NCBI GenBank assembly: GCA_027484145.1
Contig: JAIXUH010000012.1
Coordinates: 248,001-312,000, forward strand
Reading direction: 5' to 3'
Source: Rhodobacter sp.
GTDB lineage: Bacteria > Pseudomonadota > Alphaproteobacteria > Rhodobacterales > Rhodobacteraceae
DNA: 64,000 bases
The notes under the pieces are model-generated. The model made no database searches and was not told the origin of the DNA. It was given only the letters and a program-made list of their open reading frames with translations. Positions within the stretch are counted from its first letter, which is position 1. Every line of letters begins with the position of its first letter. The position numbers were made by a program, and so were the translations under genes. Positions 55,080-64,000 of this stretch are shown here, piece by piece.

Positions 55080-55291
55080 AGGCCGCCAGCCCTCCCGCAG
55101 CCCCACCGCACCCTGCCTGCGCCGTGCATCTGATTGACCGGCGCACAGGTCAGGTTCACCGGATCAACGGCCATCCGCTGATGATGCTGACCCGCCAACC
55201 TGCCGAGGCAGCCGCCGAACTTTTGGCCGGGCGCGACGCCACGATCTGGGAAGCCCGCATCGACATCATCGAAAGAAGGGATACCCGATGA
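55076..55291 (+). CDS. Small hypothetical protein in the sulfate operon (71 aa)
   Basis: A 71-residue soluble protein. After a Pro/Ala-rich start it has a compact mixed segment ([17 protein letters not shown] ... [20 protein letters not shown]). The start is GTG at 55076, overlapping the preceding gene by four bases, and its stop overlaps the next start (ATGA). No family is recognised. The tight coupling on both sides argues that it is a real gene working with the sulfate transporter. Confidence 0.6.
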
Positions 55292-56520
55292 CCAAAGCCA
55301 CTGCCGGCCATATCGCCTTGGGGCTGATCCCGATCCTGCCCCGATTTTTCGCCACGCCGTCCACGGCGCCGGCCATGCCCAAGATGACCAAGGAGACGTC
55401 TATGCTGACCACCATCAAAGTTGCAGGCCACGTGACCGCACAGGGCCTGAAGGTTGCCGAACATTCCGACGGGCGCGTCACGATTGAAACCGGGCGTGAG
55501 CGTGTCACGGGCTGGCCCCTGCCACGCCTTGTGAAGGGGGCCGTGTCGGCCATGGCACTTGCACTGATGTCAATCGGCTCGTTTGCGGCGCCCGTACAGG
55601 CCGAAAATCTGCTGAACGTCAGCTATGACCCGACGCGGGAACTCTATCGTGAAGTGAACGAAGCCTTCAGCGCTTGGTGGGTGGCACAGGGTAACACGGC
55701 CCCCACGATTGAGGTCAGCCATGGCGGATCGGGGTCGCAGGCCCGCGCCGTGATTGACGGGCTCGAGGCGCAGGTGGTGACATTGGCATTGGCCTCCGAC
55801 ATCGACAAGATCGCGGCGGCGGGCAAACTTCCTGCCGACTGGCAATCGAGGCTGGCCCACAACTCTTCGCCCTATACCAGCACCATCGTGTTTCTGGTGC
55901 GCGAGGGGAATCCGGAGGGTCTGAAAGACTGGGGCGATCTGGTGGGTGATGGGGTAGAGGTCATCACCCCGAACCCCAAAACCTCGGGTGGGGCGCGCTG
56001 GAACTATCTGGCCGCCTGGGCTTGGGCCGAAAAGAACGGGCAAGACCCGAAGGAATTCGTGGGCAAGCTCTACAAGAACGTGCCCGTTCTAGACAGCGGG
56101 GCCCGTGGCGCGACCACCACTTTCGCGCAGCGCGGCATTGGTGATGTGCTGCTGGCCTGGGAGAATGAGGCCTATCTTGCGTTGAAAGAACTGGGCGATG
56201 ATCAGTTCGATATCGTTGTGCCCTCGGTGTCGGTTCTGGCCGAACCGCCTGTTGCGCTGGTGGAAGGCAACATCAAAACCGACGAGTCCCGCAAGCTTGC
56301 AGAGGCTTATCTGAACTTCCTCTATTCGCCCGAAGGTCAGGCGCTGGCGTTCAAGCACTTTTACCGTGCTTGGGATGCATCGGCCGCCAACCCCGAGGAT
56401 GTGGCCCGTTTCCCGAAACTGGAACTTGTCGACATCGCAAGCTTTGGCGGCTGGGCAAAAGTGCAGCCCGAACACTTCGGCGACGGTGGCATCTTTGACC
56501 AGATCTACGTGCCGAAGTGA
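55288..56520 (+). CDS. Sulfate/thiosulfate-binding protein with long N-terminal extension
   Basis: Periplasmic binding protein of the CysP/Sbp family. The mature part starts at about residue 106 ([19 protein letters not shown]) and continues with [23 protein letters not shown]-type wording and [14 protein letters not shown], all family features for sulfate binding. From the first ATG the frame gives 410 residues with 105 before the signal cleavage site (VQA). A second start, ATG 55402, has a perfect AAGGAG six bases upstream and gives 372 residues, still with about 67 before the cleavage. Residues 39-80 ([16 protein letters not shown] ...) look like a small beta-rich unit. Either the signal is internal and unusually late, or a short ORF overlaps the true gene. 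The ATG at 55288 overlaps the preceding ORF by four bases. Confidence 0.85.
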
Positions 56521-56528
56521 GGTCGCAG

Positions 56529-57365
56529 ATGGGCAAACCCCTGATCCACCGATCCCCCATGCCCGGCCTTGGCCTGTCCATGGGGGTCACCCTGACCATG
56601 CTGTCGCTGGTTGTTCTGCTGCCCATCGGCGCCCTTCTTCTGAAGGGCGCCCATTATGGGGCAGCCGGCATCTGGGAAACCGTAAACCGCGAGCGGGTCT
56701 GGGCGGCGCTGTTCCTGTCGTTCCGACTGTCGCTGTTCGCCGCTGCGTTCAACCTGATCTTCGGCGTGCTGCTGGCATGGGTGCTGGTGCGCTACCGCTT
56801 TCCCGGCCGCCGCATCCTTGATGCCGCCGTGGATCTGCCCTTTGCCCTGCCGACGGCCGTGGCCGGCATCTCGCTGACCGCGCTTTACGCGCCCAATGGC
56901 GCCTTCGGGCAACTGGCGGCCGAGGTCGGGTGGAAGATCGCCTATACCCAATGGGGCATCTTCATTGCGCTGGTCTTTGTCGGCCTGCCCTTTGTCACCC
57001 GCACCGTCCAGCCGGTGATCGAGGAAATCGAGCGCGAGGTCGAAGAGGCCTCTGCAACCCTCGGCGCAACGCGGCTACACACGCTGCGCCATGTCATCCT
57101 GCCGATGCTGACCCCTGCCGCGCTGACGGGTTTTGCCTTGGCACTCGCCCGGGCGGTGGGGGAATACGGGTCGGTCATCTTCATCGCCGGAAACATCCCG
57201 CTGGTGACCGAGATCGCGCCGCTCCTCATCATCATCCAGCTGGAGGAGTTCAACTACGACGCCGCTGCCGCCATCGGCATCGCCATGCTGTTGATCAGTT
57301 TCGCGATGCTGCTGGTCATCAACCTCATTCAGGTCTGGAGCCGTCGGAGAATTGGATATGTCTGA
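56529..57365 (+). CDS. cysT: Sulfate ABC transporter permease CysT
   Basis: A 278-residue inner-membrane permease with six helices: YRFPGRRILDAAVDLPFALPTAVAGI, the EAA loop VEEASATLGATRLHTLRHVILPML, and AVGEYGSVIFIAGNIP. These are typical of CysT (CysU). With CysW it forms the channel for sulfate or thiosulfate. I chose ATG 56529 with GAGG upstream. A GTG at 56517 overlapping the preceding stop would add four residues. It overlaps cysW by eight bases. Confidence 0.94.
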   Translation: MGKPLIHRSPMPGLGLSMGVTLTMLSLVVLLPIGALLLKGAHYGAAGIWETVNRERVWAALFLSFRLSLFAAAFNLIFGVLLAWVLVRYRFPGRRILDAAVDLPFALPTAVAGISLTALYAPNGAFGQLAAEVGWKIAYTQWGIFIALVFVGLPFVTRTVQPVIEEIEREVEEASATLGATRLHTLRHVILPMLTPAALTGFALALARAVGEYGSVIFIAGNIPLVTEIAPLLIIIQLEEFNYDAAAAIGIAMLLISFAMLLVINLIQVWSRRRIGYV

Positions 57366-58221
57366 TATCCCGAACATCCGCTTTCGTCCGGCCACCGAAG
57401 AAAATCCGGCCACCCGCTGGGCCCTGATCGGCGCAGCCTTTCTTGGCCTGTCGGTCCTGGTCTTTGCCCCCCTGATCGCCGTCTTTGCCGAGGCTTTGGC
57501 CGATGGCGTTGGCGCATCGCTCAAAAGCCTTGCCAGCCCCGATGCCCGCGATGCCATCCGGCTGACGCTGACAATCGCCGCCATCTCGGTGCCGCTGAAC
57601 GCCGCCTTCGGCATCGCGGCGGCGTGGCTCATCACCAAGTTCGACTTTCGCGGCAAGGCCTTCCTGATCACCCTGATCGACCTGCCCTTCAGCGTCTCGC
57701 CGGTCGTGGCGGGCCTGTGCATCGTCTTGATGTTCGGCACCAACAGCCTTGTCGGCGGCTGGCTGGTGGCGCAGGGCTACCCCATCGTCTTTGCCATGCC
57801 GGGCATCATTCTGGCCACCATGTTCGTGACCTTTCCCTTTGCCGCGCGCGAACTGATCCCGGTGATGATCGAACAGGGCCGGGCCGAAGAGGAAGCAGCG
57901 CTCACGCTTGGCGCTTCCGGCTGGCGCACTTTCTGGACGGTGACACTCCCCAATATCCGCTGGGCGCTGCTCTATGGGGTGCTGCTGTGCAACGCCCGCG
58001 CAATGGGGGAATTCGGGGCCGTCGCCGTGGTCTCGGGCAAGATCCGCGGCCAGACTGCCACAATGCCGACGACGATCGAGATGCTCTATCAGGAATACCT
58101 GTCCGTGGCGGCCTTCAGTCTGGCCGCGGTCCTTGCCCTGCTGGCTCTCGTCACCCTGTTGCTCAAAACCGCTTTGGAAATTCACCATGCCGATCAACTC
58201 GCCGCCTCGCACCGCGCCTGA
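57358..58221 (+). CDS. cysW: Sulfate ABC transporter permease CysW
   Basis: A 287-residue permease, partner of CysT. Family features are NAAFGIAAAWLITKFDFRGK, LIDLPFSVSPVVAGL, the EAA loop EEEAALTLGASGWRTFWTVTLP, and NARAMGEFGAVAVVSGKIRGQT. The ATG at 57358 lies eight bases inside the end of cysT with GGAGA upstream. The gene is followed by a GC-rich hairpin element and then cysA. Confidence 0.94.
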   Translation: MSDIPNIRFRPATEENPATRWALIGAAFLGLSVLVFAPLIAVFAEALADGVGASLKSLASPDARDAIRLTLTIAAISVPLNAAFGIAAAWLITKFDFRGKAFLITLIDLPFSVSPVVAGLCIVLMFGTNSLVGGWLVAQGYPIVFAMPGIILATMFVTFPFAARELIPVMIEQGRAEEEAALTLGASGWRTFWTVTLPNIRWALLYGVLLCNARAMGEFGAVAVVSGKIRGQTATMPTTIEMLYQEYLSVAAFSLAAVLALLALVTLLLKTALEIHHADQLAASHRA

Positions 58222-58234
58222 CCATTTTCTGTCC

Positions 58235-58269
58235 GGAAATATCCCGGGGGTCCGGGGGCTGGCCCCCGG
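58235..58269 (+). repeat. REP-like intergenic hairpin element, copy 2
   Basis: GGAAATATCCCGGGGGTC is followed by a perfect 8-bp stem, CCGGGGGC (58252-58259) with GCCCCCGG (58262-58269). It lies between cysW and cysA. It is the same type of element as at 11639-11682 and lies in the same orientation relative to the surrounding genes: AAATATCC tail first, hairpin after. Confidence 0.65.
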
Positions 58270-58296
58270 TCACGGCCAGCCACAAAGGATCATCTG

Positions 58297-59016
58297 ATGC
58301 ACATTGAAATCGACGAAATCTCAAAGGCGTTCGGAACCACGGCAGCCTTGCATCCCGTCTCGCTGTCGCTGCCGTCGGGCGCGCTGGTGGCACTTCTCGG
58401 CCCCTCAGGCTCGGGCAAGACCACCTTGCTGCGGATTCTGGGCGGGCTGGAGTTTCCCACCTCGGGCCGCGTCCGTTTTGACGGGCAGGATGCCACGGGG
58501 CTGACGGTGCAGGAACGCCGCGCGGGCTTTGTGTTCCAAAGCTATGCCCTGTTCCGGCATATGTCGGTCTTTGACAACATCGCTTATGGCCTGAAGGCCC
58601 GCCCCCGCGCCAGCCGCCCCACGCGCGAGGAAATCGCCCGCCGGGTTACAAAACTGCTGGAGCTGATTCAGCTGCCCGACATCGGCGCGCGCTATCCCAG
58701 TCAGTTATCAGGTGGACAGCGTCAGCGGGTGGCCCTTGCCCGCGCGCTTGCCATCGAACCGCGGATGTTGCTTTTGGACGAGCCCTTTGGCGCGCTGGAT
58801 GCCAAGGTGCGCAAAGAGTTGCGCCAAGGCCTGCGCGACATTCATGACACCACGGGCCTGAGCACCATCTTTGTCACCCATGATCAGGAAGAGGCGATGG
58901 AACTGGCAGATCTTGTCGTCGTCATGTCGATGGGGCGGATTGAGCAGATCGGAAAACCGCAAGACATTCGCGCCCGCCCGGCCACCCATTTCGTGCGGGA
59001 ATTCATCAGCGCCTGA
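58297..59016 (+). CDS. cysA: Sulfate ABC transporter ATP-binding protein CysA (short form)
   Basis: A 239-residue ATPase for the sulfate importer. It has Walker [11 protein letters not shown]-loop [10 protein letters not shown], signature LSGGQRQR, Walker [13 protein letters not shown] and H-loop [12 protein letters not shown], with CysA-type wording ([22 protein letters not shown]). Most CysA proteins are about 100 residues longer with a C-terminal TOBE-like regulatory domain. Here the frame ends just after the ATPase domain (HFVREFIS), so that domain is missing. This would remove the usual site for regulation by cysteine-related signals. The gene ends at a large hairpin shared with the convergent DeoR gene. 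Confidence 0.92.
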
Positions 59017-59022
59017 CAGCCT

Positions 59023-59054
59023 GATCGCCCGTGCAACCGGTTCAGCGGGCGATC
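59023..59054. terminator. Hairpin between cysA and the DeoR-type gene
   Basis: A perfect 9-bp stem, GATCGCCCG (59023-59031) with CGGGCGATC (59046-59054). The loop itself contains AACCGGTT. It lies between convergent genes and overlaps the last codons of the regulator. There is no U-tract, but the position suggests a bidirectional terminator. Confidence 0.55.
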
Positions 59055-59815
59055 ATCACGTCAATCCCGCTACGCTCAAACTCGGCCACGTCGGTGTCGG
59101 TGATCGCATCATCCGTGATGAAGCTCTGGATCATCTCAAGTGACCCGAGGCGGGTAAAGGATGACTTGTTGATCTTGGTCGAATCCGCCACCAGATAGAC
59201 GTGGCTGGCAGCTTTGATCATGGCCTCTTTCAGTTGCAGGTCGGCAAAGCTGGGATAGGTCAGGCCCGAATCTGACGCGACACCCGCCGTGGCCAGAAAC
59301 AGTTTTCCGGCAAAGATGTTGCGAAAGTATTCGGCTGATTTGTCGCCTGACAAGGACAGCGTCGGTGCCTTGAACTGGCCGCCCGGCATATGCACAGCGT
59401 TGCCCGGCACCGCGCCAAGGATCATGGCAATGTTCAGCGCATTGGTGATGACCGTCAGATTGCGGTGGTGAACAAGGCGCAGCGCAATTTCGGTTGTTGT
59501 CGTCCCCGCATCCAGGATCAGGGTTTCCCCGTCTTTCACAAGACCCGCCGCCATGGCCCCGATCTTACGCTTTTTGTCCATGTTTTCCTGATGGTGCAGC
59601 ACCATGGCGCCCACTTGCGCCGGGACCGAATTCAGAAAGGCCCCGCCATGTTCGCGCGTGACAAGGCCATCTTGCTCCAGCCGCTCCAGATCCTGCCGGA
59701 TGGTCGCCTCGGACACCTGAAAGGCCGCCGCAAGGTCGCGCACGCGGGCGGCCCCTTCCTCTTGCACCCATTCCAGAATGCGCCGACGGCGTGGTTCGGA
59801 CAAAAGCCCGACCAT
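59042..59815 (-). CDS. DeoR-family transcriptional repressor
   Basis: A 257-residue sugar-operon regulator. The N-terminal DeoR HTH (residues 5-60) includes RRRRILEWVQEEGAARVRDLAAAFQVSEATIRQDLERLEQ. The C-terminal sugar-phosphate-sensing domain has LDAGTTTTEIA, VITNALNIA and VADSTKINKSSF. Proteins of this type repress catabolic operons until a phosphorylated sugar binds. It is divergent from the isomerase/transketolase/kinase operon, with CGAAA-type repeats between, so it is very likely its regulator. The ATG at 59815 starts MVGLLSEPRR. Confidence 0.92.
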   Translation of the reverse strand: MVGLLSEPRRRRILEWVQEEGAARVRDLAAAFQVSEATIRQDLERLEQDGLVTREHGGAFLNSVPAQVGAMVLHHQENMDKKRKIGAMAAGLVKDGETLILDAGTTTTEIALRLVHHRNLTVITNALNIAMILGAVPGNAVHMPGGQFKAPTLSLSGDKSAEYFRNIFAGKLFLATAGVASDSGLTYPSFADLQLKEAMIKAASHVYLVADSTKINKSSFTRLGSLEMIQSFITDDAITDTDVAEFERSGIDVMIAR

Positions 59816-60216
59816 GGTGTCATTGCCACGCTTTTCCGGCTTTCGTGCCACCCAAACCCCGTGTTGCCAAACCGTCGTGGCCTGCGCCCCCGGTCTATTC
59901 ACAAGCCCAAAGCCGCGCAACGCAAATCACCATGGCCCGGCCAGATGCGCCAGGTCATGGTCGCGTCGCCAAAGATTACTTTCGATTAAACACATAATAC
60001 ACGCGATTGACTTCGACTCAAGCCCACAATGGCGCGCGCCCTTGCGAACTTCTGCTGTTCCGCTGCACCCGGCCACCCCTAACATTGACGTTTCGACGAC
60101 GAAACAGCCGTCCACTGCACTTTTGCTTGTCACGCGCGATACTCTCCGCTAGAAATACGACAGCATTCGAAAACATACGAAAGCCAATGCATGGCTCACA
60201 CAAGGGAGGGACGGTC
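59816..60216. promoter_or_regulatory. Divergent control region with CGAAA operator repeats
   Basis: An inverted repeat GTTTCG-ACGA-CGAAAC lies at 60090-60105. Two direct CGAAA repeats exactly ten bases apart lie at 60168 and 60178, about 35 bases before the isomerase gene. A further TTTCG lies at 59980. GlpR/DeoR-type repressors bind repeats of this kind. Promoters for the DeoR gene and the sugar operon should lie here. No ORF in this stretch is convincing. Confidence 0.6.
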
Positions 60217-61683
60217 ATGACCAGCGTTATCCGCCGCAAGGTCACCTTGGGGGTGGTGATCGGGTCGCGGGCGTTTTTCAGCCCGGCCCCGTGCCGCGAT
60301 GCCCGTGACGAGGTGGCCGCCCAACTGGCCGCGCTTGGCATTGACATGATCACCCTGCCCTATGAGGCGACAGCCAATGGCGCCGTGCAAAGCATCGCGG
60401 ACGCCGAACTTTATGCCCGTCACTTCAAGGCCCATGCCGGCAGGATAGACGGGCTGGTGATCTGCCTGCCCAACTTTGGCGATGAGATTGCGATCATCGA
60501 ACTGGTCAACCGCGCCAAGCTGAACGTCCCGATCCTGCTGCAGGCCAGCAATGACGAGTTGACAAAGGTCTCGGTCAGCGAACGCCGCGATGCGTTTTGC
60601 GGAAAGATCAGCGTGACCAACAACTTCTGGCAATACGGCGTGCCATTCACCGAAACCACCAGCCACACCTGCGATGTATCGGGGCCAGAATTCCGGGCCG
60701 ACCTTGAACGCTTTGCCCGCTTGTGCCGCACTGTGCGCGGCCTGCGTGGCGCGCGTCTGGGGGCCATCGGCGCGCGCACCGGCGCTTTCCAGACCATGCG
60801 CTATTCGGAAAAGCTGTTGCAGGCCGCAGGCATCACGGTGGTGACGGTGGACCTGTCGGAAATGATGGGGGCGGCTGGCGCGATTCCTGACGACGATGCC
60901 GATCTGCGCGCCAAGATGGAACGTATCCGCGCCTATGGCACCGTGCCTGCGCATATCACCGAAACGCAGGTGCGCACGCAGGCGAAATGGACCCTCGCCG
61001 TCAACCGCTGGATTGCCGAAAACGAATGCGATGCGAGTGCCATCCAGTGCTGGCGGTCCTTGCAGGACAACTTCGGCTGCGCCACTTGCGTGACCATGTC
61101 GATGATGGGCGAAGAACTGATGCCAAGCGCCTGCGAGGTGGATATCATGGGTGCGCTGTCGATGTATGCGCTTGCCCTTGCCTCGGGCGCGCCTCCGGCC
61201 ATCCTTGACTGGAACAACAACTACGGGACCGAGGCCGACATGTGCGTCTGCACCCATTGCGGCAACTTCCCCAAATCCTTCATCGGCGACACGCCCGAGA
61301 TTTCCGAACTGGATGTTCTGGGCAGCGTCATCGGCAAATCGAAGTGCTTCGGCGCGGTCAAAGGCAAGGTGAAGGCAGGGCCGATGACCTATTTCCGCCT
61401 GTCATCCGATGACAGGGCCGGCAGCCTGAAATGCTATCTGGGCGAGGGAGAGTTTACAGACCACCCTTTCCCGATGGACGGCGGCATTGCCGTGACACGC
61501 GTGGCCGACCTGCGCCGCCTGATGCGATTCGTCACCCAGAACGGGTTTGAGCATCACGTCGCCATGGTGCGTGGCCATCACGCCGATGTCGTGTCCGAGG
61601 CCGTGACGCGCTATCTGCGGTGGCCAATGTATCACCACGGCGGCGAACCCGAACCGCAGCTTTCCTTTCCCAACCGGTTCTGA
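60217..61683 (+). CDS. L-fucose/L-arabinose isomerase family protein
   Basis: A 488-residue cytosolic enzyme of the FucI/AraA ketol-isomerase superfamily, which interconverts aldoses and ketoses using a divalent metal. Candidate metal ligands are Glu307 (SACEVDIMGAL), Asp331 (ILDWNNNYG) and His454 (VRGHHADV). The 24-residue Glu-Asp spacing equals that of E. coli FucI Glu337/Asp361 as I recall it. It is about 100 residues shorter than FucI and has a cysteine cluster MCVCTHCGNF of unknown meaning. The ATG at 60217 follows GGGAGGG. It leads an operon with a split transketolase and an FGGY kinase under DeoR control, so it probably isomerises the sugar entering that route. The substrate is unknown. 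Confidence 0.85.
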   Translation: MTSVIRRKVTLGVVIGSRAFFSPAPCRDARDEVAAQLAALGIDMITLPYEATANGAVQSIADAELYARHFKAHAGRIDGLVICLPNFGDEIAIIELVNRAKLNVPILLQASNDELTKVSVSERRDAFCGKISVTNNFWQYGVPFTETTSHTCDVSGPEFRADLERFARLCRTVRGLRGARLGAIGARTGAFQTMRYSEKLLQAAGITVVTVDLSEMMGAAGAIPDDDADLRAKMERIRAYGTVPAHITETQVRTQAKWTLAVNRWIAENECDASAIQCWRSLQDNFGCATCVTMSMMGEELMPSACEVDIMGALSMYALALASGAPPAILDWNNNYGTEADMCVCTHCGNFPKSFIGDTPEISELDVLGSVIGKSKCFGAVKGKVKAGPMTYFRLSSDDRAGSLKCYLGEGEFTDHPFPMDGGIAVTRVADLRRLMRFVTQNGFEHHVAMVRGHHADVVSEAVTRYLRWPMYHHGGEPEPQLSFPNRF

Positions 61684-61686
61684 CCC

Positions 61687-62514
61687 ATGCACATGCCCGC
61701 CGGAACGAACGATACCCTTTCGCTGATCACGGCCAAGGCGCTGTGGATGCGCCGCCGCGCGTTTCAGATGGTTTATATGGCCCAGTTGGGTCACCCCGGG
61801 GGTGATTTCTCGGCCATCGACGTGCTGGCGACGCTGTATTTCGGCGTGCTGCGCTTTGATCCCGCGCGCCCCGACTGGCCCGCGCGCGACCGCTTCATCA
61901 TGTCAAAAGGCCATGCTTCAGGCGCGCTTTACACTGCCCTGTGCGCGGCGGGGTACTTTCCCGAAAGCTGGCTGGACAGTTATATGCAACCACGGTCACT
62001 TTTGAACGGGCACCCCAACCGGAATTACCTGCCCGGCGTGGAAACCAACACCGGGCCCTTGGGCCATGGTTTTCCCGTGGCCGTTGGCGTTGCAATTGCA
62101 GGTAAGCTTTCCGGGTCAGACCACCGCACCTTTGTGCTGACCGGCGACGGCGAACAGCAAGAAGGCTCAAACTGGGAGGCGGCGATGGTGGCAGGCCACC
62201 GCAAGCTGAGCCACTTGACCCTGATCATCGACCGCAACCGCCTGCAGCAAGGCGCGGGCACCGAAGAAACCTCGGGCCTTGATCCGCTGGACCAGAAATA
62301 CGCGGCCTTTGGCTGGGATGTCGCGTTTGCCGATGGGCATGATATTGCGGCGCTGCATCTGGCGTTGTCGGCACCGCCCGGTGACCGCCCCCGTTGCATC
62401 ATCGCCAATACAGTCAAGGGCAAGGGCGTGTCGTTCATGGAAAACAAGGCAAACTGGCACCATGGCGTGCCCAATGCAGACCAGTTTGCGACCGCCATGA
62501 AGGAACTGATCTGA
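61687..62514 (+). CDS. Transketolase N-terminal subunit
   Basis: A 275-residue thiamine-diphosphate-binding subunit. It has HPGGDFSAIDVLATLYF, the SKGHASGALYTAL active-site stretch, GPLGHGFPVAVGVAIA, and the ThDP motif TGDGEQQEGSNWEA with the closing Asn in IIDRNRLQQ. It corresponds to the first half of a full transketolase and works with the next gene product as a heteromer. Such two-gene transketolases occur in specialised sugar pathways (for example apulose-4-phosphate and sulfosugar routes) besides the housekeeping enzyme. The ATG at 61687 lies three bases after the isomerase stop. Confidence 0.93.
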   Translation: MHMPAGTNDTLSLITAKALWMRRRAFQMVYMAQLGHPGGDFSAIDVLATLYFGVLRFDPARPDWPARDRFIMSKGHASGALYTALCAAGYFPESWLDSYMQPRSLLNGHPNRNYLPGVETNTGPLGHGFPVAVGVAIAGKLSGSDHRTFVLTGDGEQQEGSNWEAAMVAGHRKLSHLTLIIDRNRLQQGAGTEETSGLDPLDQKYAAFGWDVAFADGHDIAALHLALSAPPGDRPRCIIANTVKGKGVSFMENKANWHHGVPNADQFATAMKELI

Positions 62515-63464
62515 TGGCACATGCCACCGCAAAGGCCGGATTGTTCGATTGCCGCGAGGCATGGGCCAGCACGATCGAGGCGCTTGCCGCCGCCGACGAA
62601 CGCATCGTCGTGGTGGTGAACGATTCCGTGGGGTCGTCCAAACTGGGCGGGTTCCAGAAGGCATTCCCCGATCGCACCATCAACGTGGGCATTGCCGAAC
62701 AGGTGATGGTGGGCGTCGGCGCAGGGCTTGCCAATGGCGGGCGCATCCCCTTTGTCTCGGCCGCGTCCTGTTTCATCACCGGGCGCGCGCTGGAACAGGT
62801 CAAGGCCGACGTGGCCTATGCTGGCTTTAACGTAAAGCTGGTGGGGCAATCTTCTGGCGTGGCCTATGGCGAGTTGGGGGCCACGCACCATTCGATCGAG
62901 GATTTCGCATGGCTGCGCCCCCTGACCGACATCATCGTCATCACGCCGTCCGACCCTTGGGAAACGGCCGAAGCGGTGAAATGGGCCGCCACGCATGAGG
63001 GGCCGGTCTATCTGCGCCTGTCGCGGATGCCGGTTCCCGCTTTGGAGGTGCCTGACCGCGTCTTTCGCGTCGGCAAGGCCGAAGTGATGCGCGAAGGCCG
63101 CGATCTGGCGATCATCGCTTGTGGCACAACCGTCCACCTTGCCGTCGCTGCCGCCGAACTGCTGGCACAAGATGGGGTGGCCGCACGGGTGCTGAACATG
63201 GCAACCCTCAACCCGCTGGACGAAGAAGCGCTGCACGCGGCAGCGGCCACAGGTGCCATCGTGACGGTGGAAGAAGCCTCGGTCCGGGGCGGTTTGGGCG
63301 GGGCCGTAGCTGAATTCACCGCGTCCCACCGCCCCATTCCGGTGGAACGCATGGGCTTTCCCGGCTTCATGCCCACCGGATCAGCCGACTGGCTGTTTGC
63401 CGAACATGGCCTATCGGCCCCCGGCATCGCAGCGGCGGCAATGCGCGCCTTGGCGCGGCGCTGA
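62514..63464 (+). CDS. Transketolase C-terminal subunit
   Basis: A 316-residue subunit with the pyrimidine-binding and C-terminal domains. It has INVGIAEQVMVGVGAGLA (catalytic Glu activating ThDP), GATHHSIEDFAWLRPLT, VYLRLSRMPVP and a C-terminal VTVEEASVRGGLGGAVAEF. It shares one base with the N-terminal subunit gene (TGATG), so equimolar synthesis is expected. It should transfer a two-carbon unit from the ketose phosphate made by the flanking isomerase and kinase. Confidence 0.93.
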   Translation: MAHATAKAGLFDCREAWASTIEALAAADERIVVVVNDSVGSSKLGGFQKAFPDRTINVGIAEQVMVGVGAGLANGGRIPFVSAASCFITGRALEQVKADVAYAGFNVKLVGQSSGVAYGELGATHHSIEDFAWLRPLTDIIVITPSDPWETAEAVKWAATHEGPVYLRLSRMPVPALEVPDRVFRVGKAEVMREGRDLAIIACGTTVHLAVAAAELLAQDGVAARVLNMATLNPLDEEALHAAAATGAIVTVEEASVRGGLGGAVAEFTASHRPIPVERMGFPGFMPTGSADWLFAEHGLSAPGIAAAAMRALARR

Positions 63465-63469
63465 CGGCC

Positions 63470-64000
63470 ATGCGCGTTCTGGCCATAGATCAGGGCACGA
63501 CGAATACCAAGGCTGTGCTGGTGGATGCGGGGGGGCAGGTCGTCGCCCGCGCTTCGGCTCCGCTGACCACCCAATATCCCCATCCCGGCTGGGCGGAACA
63601 ATCGGCCAGTGCGATCTGGGCCTCTGTTCAGGCGGTGATCGCCGAACTTGTACCGCATGGCACGCCTGACGCCATTGCCATCGCAAACCAGCGCGAAACG
63701 CTGGTGGTCTGGGACGCGGCGACTTCACAGCCGATCTGCCCCGCACCGATCTGGCAATGCCGCCGCACGGCGGCCGCCTGCGCCGCGTTGATTGCCGCAG
63801 GCCACAACGAGGCCGTGCGTCAGGCCACGGGTCTTGACATCAACCCGCTGTTTCCCGCCTCGAAACTGGCGTGGGTGATGCAGAATGTGCCCGAGGCGGC
63901 AGGACTGCTGGCACAAGGCCGACTGCGTGCCGGAACGGTGGATGCGTGGCTTTTGTGGAACCTGACGGCGGGCGCAAGTTTCGCCTGCGACCATTCCAAC
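63470..64000 (+). CDS. FGGY-family carbohydrate kinase, N-terminal part (3' end outside window)
   Basis: The first 177 residues of a sugar kinase. The N-terminal ATPase fold shows VLAIDQGTTNTKAVLVDAGG (phosphate 1 loop), HPGWAEQSASAIW, AIANQRETLVVWD and IWQCRRTAA, all FGGY features shared by glycerol, xylulose and related kinases. It starts five bases after the transketolase subunit gene and runs off the window. In the operon order (isomerase, transketolase, kinase) it would phosphorylate the ketose made by the isomerase, giving the transketolase substrate. The sugar cannot be named from this part. Confidence 0.92.
   Translation, partial: MRVLAIDQGTTNTKAVLVDAGGQVVARASAPLTTQYPHPGWAEQSASAIWASVQAVIAELVPHGTPDAIAIANQRETLVVWDAATSQPICPAPIWQCRRTAAACAALIAAGHNEAVRQATGLDINPLFPASKLAWVMQNVPEAAGLLAQGRLRAGTVDAWLLWNLTAGASFACDHSN

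Follow-up and report, generated by a model that had tools for sequence, protein, structure and literature searches.

In this study we describe an operon at the right end of a 64,000-nucleotide stretch of DNA from Rhodobacter sp. (assembly GCA_027484145.1, contig JAIXUH010000012.1, bases 248001-312000; C25 in our numbering, in a genome of 4.97 Mb), hereafter the window. The operon encodes an isomerase of the FucI/AraA fold, the two subunits of a split transketolase and a GlpK-like FGGY kinase, with a DeoR-family regulator gene divergent from it. On the observed gene content, homology, fold, operon conservation, pattern of gene exchange and changes in substrate pockets, the operon very probably serves D-apiose catabolism of the isomerase-kinase-transketolase type, with the FucI/AraA-fold isomerase replacing an unrelated one. 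The pathway is already known, and what is new is an operon variant with an unrelated isomerase.

The predicted route, with its substrate, each catalytic step and its regulation, would start with conversion of D-apiose to the branched ketose apulose by the FucI/AraA-fold enzyme, after which the GlpK-like FGGY kinase would form apulose 4-phosphate. The split transketolase would then pass a two-carbon ketol unit on to glyceraldehyde 3-phosphate, with dihydroxyacetone phosphate and xylulose 5-phosphate as products, as in the published apiose pathway, and DeoR probably represses the operon. An earlier reading of the letters without database searches (the sequence-only reading) had given the same gene set and order, which open reading frames and family matches confirm, together with the logic of an aldose isomerase, a kinase and a dedicated transketolase, which gene content and homology bear out. 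It had also drawn a comparison with D-apiose that proved apt, the transketolase and kinase being homologous to members of D-apiose clusters. Its suggestion of a substrate not yet described for this gene set is not supported, in view of that homology and of apiose genes linked to the importer of related cassettes.

Transketolase and kinase of probable D-apiose type

Strains of Escherichia coli and E. fergusonii that possess a ten-gene D-apiose cluster use this sugar for growth, unlike K-12, the cluster kinase being named aplK and the transketolase genes aptA and aptB, and growth data on D-apiose concern strains with the E. coli-type cluster, which carries short-chain dehydrogenase/reductase (SDR) genes, and P. 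carotovorum (extracts of PMC13001218). The cluster of E. coli SE15 comprises two SDR oxidoreductases, RbsC, RbsA, a DUF2291 protein, a substrate-binding protein (SBP), the kinase, a SorC regulator, aptA and aptB. Clusters of Klebsiella, Rahnella and Sodalis from a plasmid collection consist of the same kinds of genes with a FucI-like isomerase for the SDR pair, and are 69-72% (kinase), 78-79% (AptA) and 73-77% (AptB) identical to SE15.

In the window, transketolase A is 75% identical to the corresponding subunit of a plasmid operon of Rhizobium sp. SL42 (L108) and 45% to SE15 AptA, and transketolase B 74% and 43% to the SL42 subunit and SE15 AptB, respectively. The column of E. coli TktA Asp469 holds Leu in all 97 transketolase B subunits examined, window and SE15 included, and the ordinary transketolase encoded elsewhere in the window genome keeps GEDGP. 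On these identities and the shared Asp469 to Leu change, the pair belongs with the AptA/AptB-type dedicated split transketolases.

The window kinase, 64% identical to the SL42 kinase and 46% to SE15 AplK, is likewise of the apulose type by these identities and by the shared replacement of GlpK F270 by Ser. It also has Leu at GlpK Y135, so that the glycerol pocket, of which we take F270 and Y135 to be residues, is not intact. Among 95 cassette kinases, the F270 column is Ser in 94, and the Y135 column is Leu in 69 and Tyr in 18. The sequence-only reading had held that a kinase grouping with glycerol kinases would mean ordinary pentose use; the grouping holds by sequence family, and its supposed meaning does not, given Ser for Phe270.

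An isomerase of the FucI/AraA fold

The isomerase carries the Fucose_iso_C domain, and structure comparison finds the AraA/FucI fold over its whole length, at 11-14% identity to AraA and FucI over the fold in structure alignments. The AP_endonuc_2 domain and a TIM-barrel fold were not found in it, and the SL42 protein in the same slot has AP_endonuc_2. No phmmer match to PDB sequences was obtained at E up to 1, and profile alignment to single AraA or FucI sequences gave probabilities below 1%. The isomerase thus does not group closely with characterised L-fucose or L-arabinose isomerases; a tight grouping with them is what the sequence-only reading had named as fatal to its proposal of an unusual sugar. 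The sole NCBIfam match was SftI (NF048012), at 88.7 bits against a curated cut-off of 700. As start codon, ATG 60217 reads better than the upstream TTG 60007. The enzyme had been called a shortened FucI/AraA-type isomerase; the fold is right and it is short against E. coli FucI (591 aa), but at 488 aa it is the size of E. coli AraA (500 aa).

Residues E307, D331, H347, H446 and H447 are invariant in 33 aligned isomerases, and E307 and D331 are spaced like E337 and D361 of FucI, a likeness of spacing only, the residues not being superposed. This alignment leaves out L027, L066 and L077, which contain stops, includes L087 and L103 with trimmed ends, and is otherwise a selection of loci. Because of the invariance and the spacing, these residues may form the metal site of an isomerase, the metal-ligand role of the corresponding FucI-type residues being our assumption. 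C343, V344, H347 and C348 are invariant in 12 aligned isomerases, five of which read KCVLFHCGN. The MCVCTHC motif, previously singled out as a cysteine cluster, was rejected as a special feature because its middle cysteine is kept in only 4 of the 12.

Exchange of the first-step enzyme in related operons

The SL42 operon consists of DeoR, an importer, a TIM-barrel protein, tkA, tkB (the genes of transketolase subunits A and B) and the kinase. We examined the first-step gene among 246 Enterobacteriaceae genomes, in which AptB was matched at E up to 1e-90 in 45 (46 rows); 42 clusters were examined and G840, G751, G838 and G827 were left out. With class limits of 60% identity for FucI-like, 45% for TIM-barrel and, for the SDR class, 60% in one or both members of the pair, 20 clusters were FucI-like, 16 SDR and three TIM-barrel, three had none of these, and no cluster had two kinds. 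The types can be compared most closely in four FucI-type clusters (L188, L192, L196, L197) and three TIM-type clusters (L191, L193, L194), which have the common order isomerase, kinase, aptB, aptA, importer; their kinases are 43-45% identical to that of SE15, and their SBPs form one branch, 78-82% identical to that of Rahnella.

A further exchange was found within one alphaproteobacterial genus, in which the gene is FucI-like in genome G030 and of the TIM-barrel type in G259, the latter sharing 79% identity with the SL42 gene. Between the two, RbsA, RbsC and SBP are 94-95% identical, tkB 71%, tkA 69% and the kinase 58%. The occurrence of exchanges in three lineages is best explained if the FucI-like, TIM-barrel and SDR types carry out the same net conversion, putatively D-apiose to apulose. 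From these sequence comparisons the FucI-like enzyme has probably taken over, by non-orthologous replacement, the step that a TIM-barrel isomerase or, in E. coli, the SDR pair serves elsewhere. The published Pectobacterium apiose isomerase may be of the TIM-barrel type, as the pectate lyase matches given below indirectly suggest, and this is the fold we take the published enzyme to have; the sequence-only reading had likewise ascribed a different fold to the known apiose isomerase, and a TIM-barrel protein does occupy the slot in related operons.

Genome G741 has two apt clusters, one FucI-type and one SDR-type (L182, L199), and in genome G447 a FucI-like isomerase (L131, about 8.8-10.3 kb) lies about 500 kb from aptA, aptB and kinase genes (L198) that have none adjoining. 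Pectate lyases gave 5 and 4 matches, three in tandem, in TIM-type G489 and G596, which belong to one genus, and none in TIM-type G709, in 13 further genomes of the same scan or in 4 of an earlier scan; several such lyases in one genome are to be expected of Pectobacterium.

Conservation of the cassette and the isomerase family

A scan of named genomes with the isomerase profile gave at least 576 related stretches, and the analysis covered the best 80 of them. Of these isomerase loci, 42 are flanked by all of tkA, tkB and kinase (the cassette), as are 31 of the 41 with more than 9 kb on each side, which argues that the cassette is no chance grouping. A full cassette beside the isomerase was found in eight phyla: Pseudomonadota, Spirochaetota, Planctomycetota, Bacteroidota, Acidobacteriota, Verrucomicrobiota, Chloroflexota and Bacillota. 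At 28 of the 42 loci the three enzymes are joined by a cassette-type SBP, defined by an identity of 35% or more to any of five query SBPs, and typically also by a DUF2291 lipoprotein and RbsA/RbsC-like genes. The isomerase is rare in Alphaproteobacteria, with matches in nine of 289 genomes drawn, three of them strong, the window's own included. Rhodobacter capsulatus has a homologue (L036), and at Rhodobacterales loci L025, L030 and L039 no tkA, tkB, kinase or cassette-type SBP was found beside the isomerase gene in the stretch examined.

In a tree built by a quick method from 105 isomerases (rows shorter than 380 aa excluded, stops read as X), at least five changes between genomic contexts were found. 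In 13 tree rows, and in one with both contexts, the isomerase lies near other kinases and alcohol dehydrogenases, often with a DXR-like oxidoreductase. At L056 (3056-11425), for example, where one representative of each kind of gene was scanned, its neighbours are a DXR-like oxidoreductase (DRL_cat, PF21135), zinc alcohol dehydrogenases, a glyoxalase-fold protein, XylB-like FGGY kinases and SIS or SorC genes. By clustering, the DXR-type context extends to L066-L069, L072, L075, L077, L079, L084, L094 and L098, and L052 and L061 are similar without the DXR-like gene. At the Spirochaetota locus L067 (1-21404) a single isomerase is surrounded both by the transketolase/kinase cassette and by DXR-like, dehydrogenase and kinase genes in two sets. 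Since apiitol phosphate is a hydroxylated analogue of methylerythritol phosphate, one guess is that the DRL-like enzyme might make a linear pentulose phosphate out of a branched pentitol phosphate. On a Croceibacterium plasmid, a tkA/tkB/kinase set without an adjoining isomerase lies among pectinesterase and GH28 genes, a setting in keeping with a pectin-derived sugar.

Importers of related cassettes

In relatives of the window operon the importer genes are found between those of DeoR and isomerase or at another place close by. The cassette of Frigidibacter, whose isomerase is 84% identical to that of the window, has an SBP that matches PDB entries 5ibq (E 8e-153) and 4ry0 (E 2e-152). In Paracoccus and Martelella, SBPs 80-85% identical to it adjoin genes annotated as OiaX (3-oxo-isoapionate-4-phosphate decarboxylase), a four-carbon acid sugar kinase and a Gfo/Idh dehydrogenase, and in R. 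etli and Roseibium they adjoin RuBisCO-large-subunit-like genes; such RuBisCO-like proteins have been tied to D-apiose (excerpts of PMC6302742). A single-sequence structure model of the SBP was poor (pLDDT 40.4), and a structure search with it was uninformative, did not list 5ibq and was not used. The DUF2291 lipoprotein goes with apiose- and erythritol-type CUT2 importers in several phyla (L026 8001-8678, L105 5675-6283, L107 31342-31962 and others), and no mention of DUF2291 was found in our literature search.

A transporter had been expected just beyond position 64000. None adjoins the operon among the open reading frames inspected by eye over the 33 kb that follow the window, no family search having been made there. 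A search of the window's own genome with the Frigidibacter SBP gave 18 matches, just one above 30% identity (50%, C32:99935), and this match and the one DUF2291 match in the genome both lie in an erythritol-like cluster on contig C32. This cluster (L124 3609-17034, genome G000) encodes two FGGY kinases, two glycerol-phosphate-oxidase-like proteins, a DeoR regulator, a TIM-barrel protein and a CUT2 importer that has a DUF2291 protein of its own. The C32 importer was not accepted as a dedicated apiose importer.

Alternative substrates

Several observations weigh against the D-apiose assignment, the first of which concern transport. An apiose-type importer with DUF2291, which is usual and not essential, was found neither in the window operon nor in its genome, other importer types not having been searched for, and the SBP of the C32 cluster is 46-52% identical to nine of the compared SBPs and less to the rest. 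In Enterobacteriaceae, the SBP of FucI-type clusters is just 43-44% identical to the SE15-type SBP, and the importers of SDR-type clusters form the E. coli branch, being identical to those of FucI and TIM types, where matched, at about 42-46% (SBP), 46-51% (RbsA) and 25-29% (DUF2291); the importer SBP of G030 and G259 is just 25-31% identical to apiose-type SBPs. PDB 5ibq is reportedly a complex with apiose, and PMC8112048 calls it a probable ribose binder.

Other such points concern the enzymes. The kinase of 9 of the 20 FucI-type Enterobacteriaceae clusters is just 44-46% identical to SE15 AplK, and the window kinase and transketolase are 43-46% identical to those of SE15, their closer links (64-75%) being with the putative apiose operon of SL42. 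The growth data on D-apiose were obtained at strain level, for carriers of the SDR variant, and do not test genes singly, and the role in apiose use proposed for the FucI-like isomerases is drawn from sequence. Finally, nine of the 41 wide-flank loci lack the cassette and one has two of its three genes; because of these loci, and of the part of the family in other contexts, a second substrate within the isomerase family is possible.

The same loci and tree rows lend some weight to a recruitment of the cassette for another branched or unusual sugar, in which the FucI-like isomerase would make another ketose that kinase and transketolase tolerate. Isomerase families change substrate easily, importers vary between cluster types, and no apiose-type importer was found in the window genome in the searches made. 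Such a recruitment is nevertheless unlikely, given that operons otherwise closely alike carry either this isomerase or a TIM-barrel gene, that SDR genes take its place in clusters of apiose-growing strains, and that a cassette-type SBP is present at two thirds (28/42) of the full-cassette loci.

Ordinary pentose use, of the ribose, xylulose or arabinose type and with a redundant transketolase, is improbable. It would fit a kinase that is GlpK/XylB-like, two related importer SBPs that score best with the RbsB model, under its cut-off, and the deposition of 4ry0 and 5ibq as probable ribose binders, but a housekeeping transketolase is encoded elsewhere in the genome, the dedicated transketolases share Leu in the Asp469 column without exception, and the isomerase is distant from AraA and FucI and matches no PDB sequence at E up to 1. 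Sulfosugar catabolism, with an SftI-like sulfoquinovose isomerase feeding a sulfo-transketolase, is very improbable despite the SftI match and a sulfate-type ABC ATPase gene just upstream, as that match is far under its cut-off, a pathway with sulfonate in place of phosphate has no need of a sugar kinase, and the orthologous clusters of Klebsiella, Rahnella, Sodalis and SL42 lack the sulfate genes.

D-apiose remains the most likely substrate, and on balance we lean slightly towards regarding the FucI/AraA-fold protein as a second, structurally unrelated and undescribed family of D-apiose isomerases, found with the cassette in at least eight phyla and repeatedly swapped with the TIM-barrel enzyme and the SDR pair in related apiose operons; it may be the commonest type in some groups (20/42 Enterobacteriaceae clusters). 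Our literature search found no paper evidently on a FucI-like apiose isomerase, although a description in Carter et al. 2018 is possible. The assignment gives a probable substrate to a widespread isomerase family labelled merely 'fucose/arabinose isomerase family' by annotation pipelines, narrows an unknown sugar to one assayable conversion, D-apiose to apulose, and widens the range of probable apiose users to many bacterial phyla. The slot that three unrelated enzyme types fill in related operons looks like a clean case of non-orthologous replacement, and transketolase Asp469 to Leu and kinase Phe270 to Ser may serve as sequence markers for annotating apulose pathways.

Gene layout and possible operator

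The features of the locus are listed in Table 1. The kinase ends 915 bases beyond the window, the whole protein of 481 aa being encoded on the contig (L006:6471-7916), and to its right lie a TerC-like protein, read by eye, and then unrelated genes. Directly upstream of DeoR are sulfate-type ABC transporter genes (window 55288-59016), with the ATPase a CysA family match and the binding protein and two permeases named by eye.

Table 1. Genes and other features of the putative D-apiose operon in the window (window positions)
Feature	Position	Strand	Family match or remark
DeoR/GlpR-family regulator	ORF 59042..59920, probable ATG start 59815	-	DeoRC + HTH_DeoR; divergent from operon
Divergent intergenic region with CTTTCG/CGAAAG elements (59975-59989, 60164-60185), possible DeoR operator	59975..60185		
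FucI/AraA-fold isomerase, 488 aa, proposed D-apiose isomerase	60217..61683	+	Fucose_iso_C
Split transketolase N-terminal subunit, AptA-like	61687..62514	+	Transketolase_N
Split transketolase C-terminal subunit, AptB-like	62514..63464	+	Transket_pyr + Transketolase_C
FGGY kinase, GlpK-like (AplK-like)	63470..64000, on to contig position 312915	+	FGGY_N

The DeoR proteins of the Frigidibacter cassette and of SL42 (140 aa compared) are each 78% identical to that of the window. The best 10-mer, with at most one mismatch, occurs in 13 of 19 related upstream regions, the sequences being related, against a maximum of 4 of 19 over 15 shuffles. It was not found upstream of the TIM-type operon of SL42, the only one-mismatch match being at another position (0.85 expected), nor is a one-mismatch match unusual for the window (1 found, 1.86 expected). 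These counts are weak evidence for the CTTTCG/CGAAAG elements as a candidate DeoR operator.

Comparison with known systems

Set beside AraA and FucI, the window isomerase shares the fold at the low identity given above, and its neighbours are a split transketolase and a GlpK-like kinase, not genes of ara or fuc operons. The kinase is of the same family as GlpK, with R83, E84, W103 and D245 retained in 95 of 95 kinases, but unlike GlpK it and its relatives have the altered residues at F270 and, mostly, Y135. Nearest in layout is the SL42 operon, with DeoR, transketolase A and B and kinase in the same order and 64-78% identical, unlike the window in having a TIM-barrel protein in the isomerase slot and an importer between DeoR and the isomerase position. 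The closest known pathway is D-apiose degradation I (ApsI, AplK, AptA/AptB), reportedly described by Carter et al. 2018, with which the window operon shares a homologous kinase, both homologous transketolase subunits and, as predicted, the same order of reactions, and most related operons also share the SBP/DUF2291/RbsA/RbsC importer. The window operon differs from it in having a FucI/AraA-fold isomerase where that pathway has a TIM-barrel enzyme or an SDR pair, DeoR where it has SorC, and no importer within the operon.

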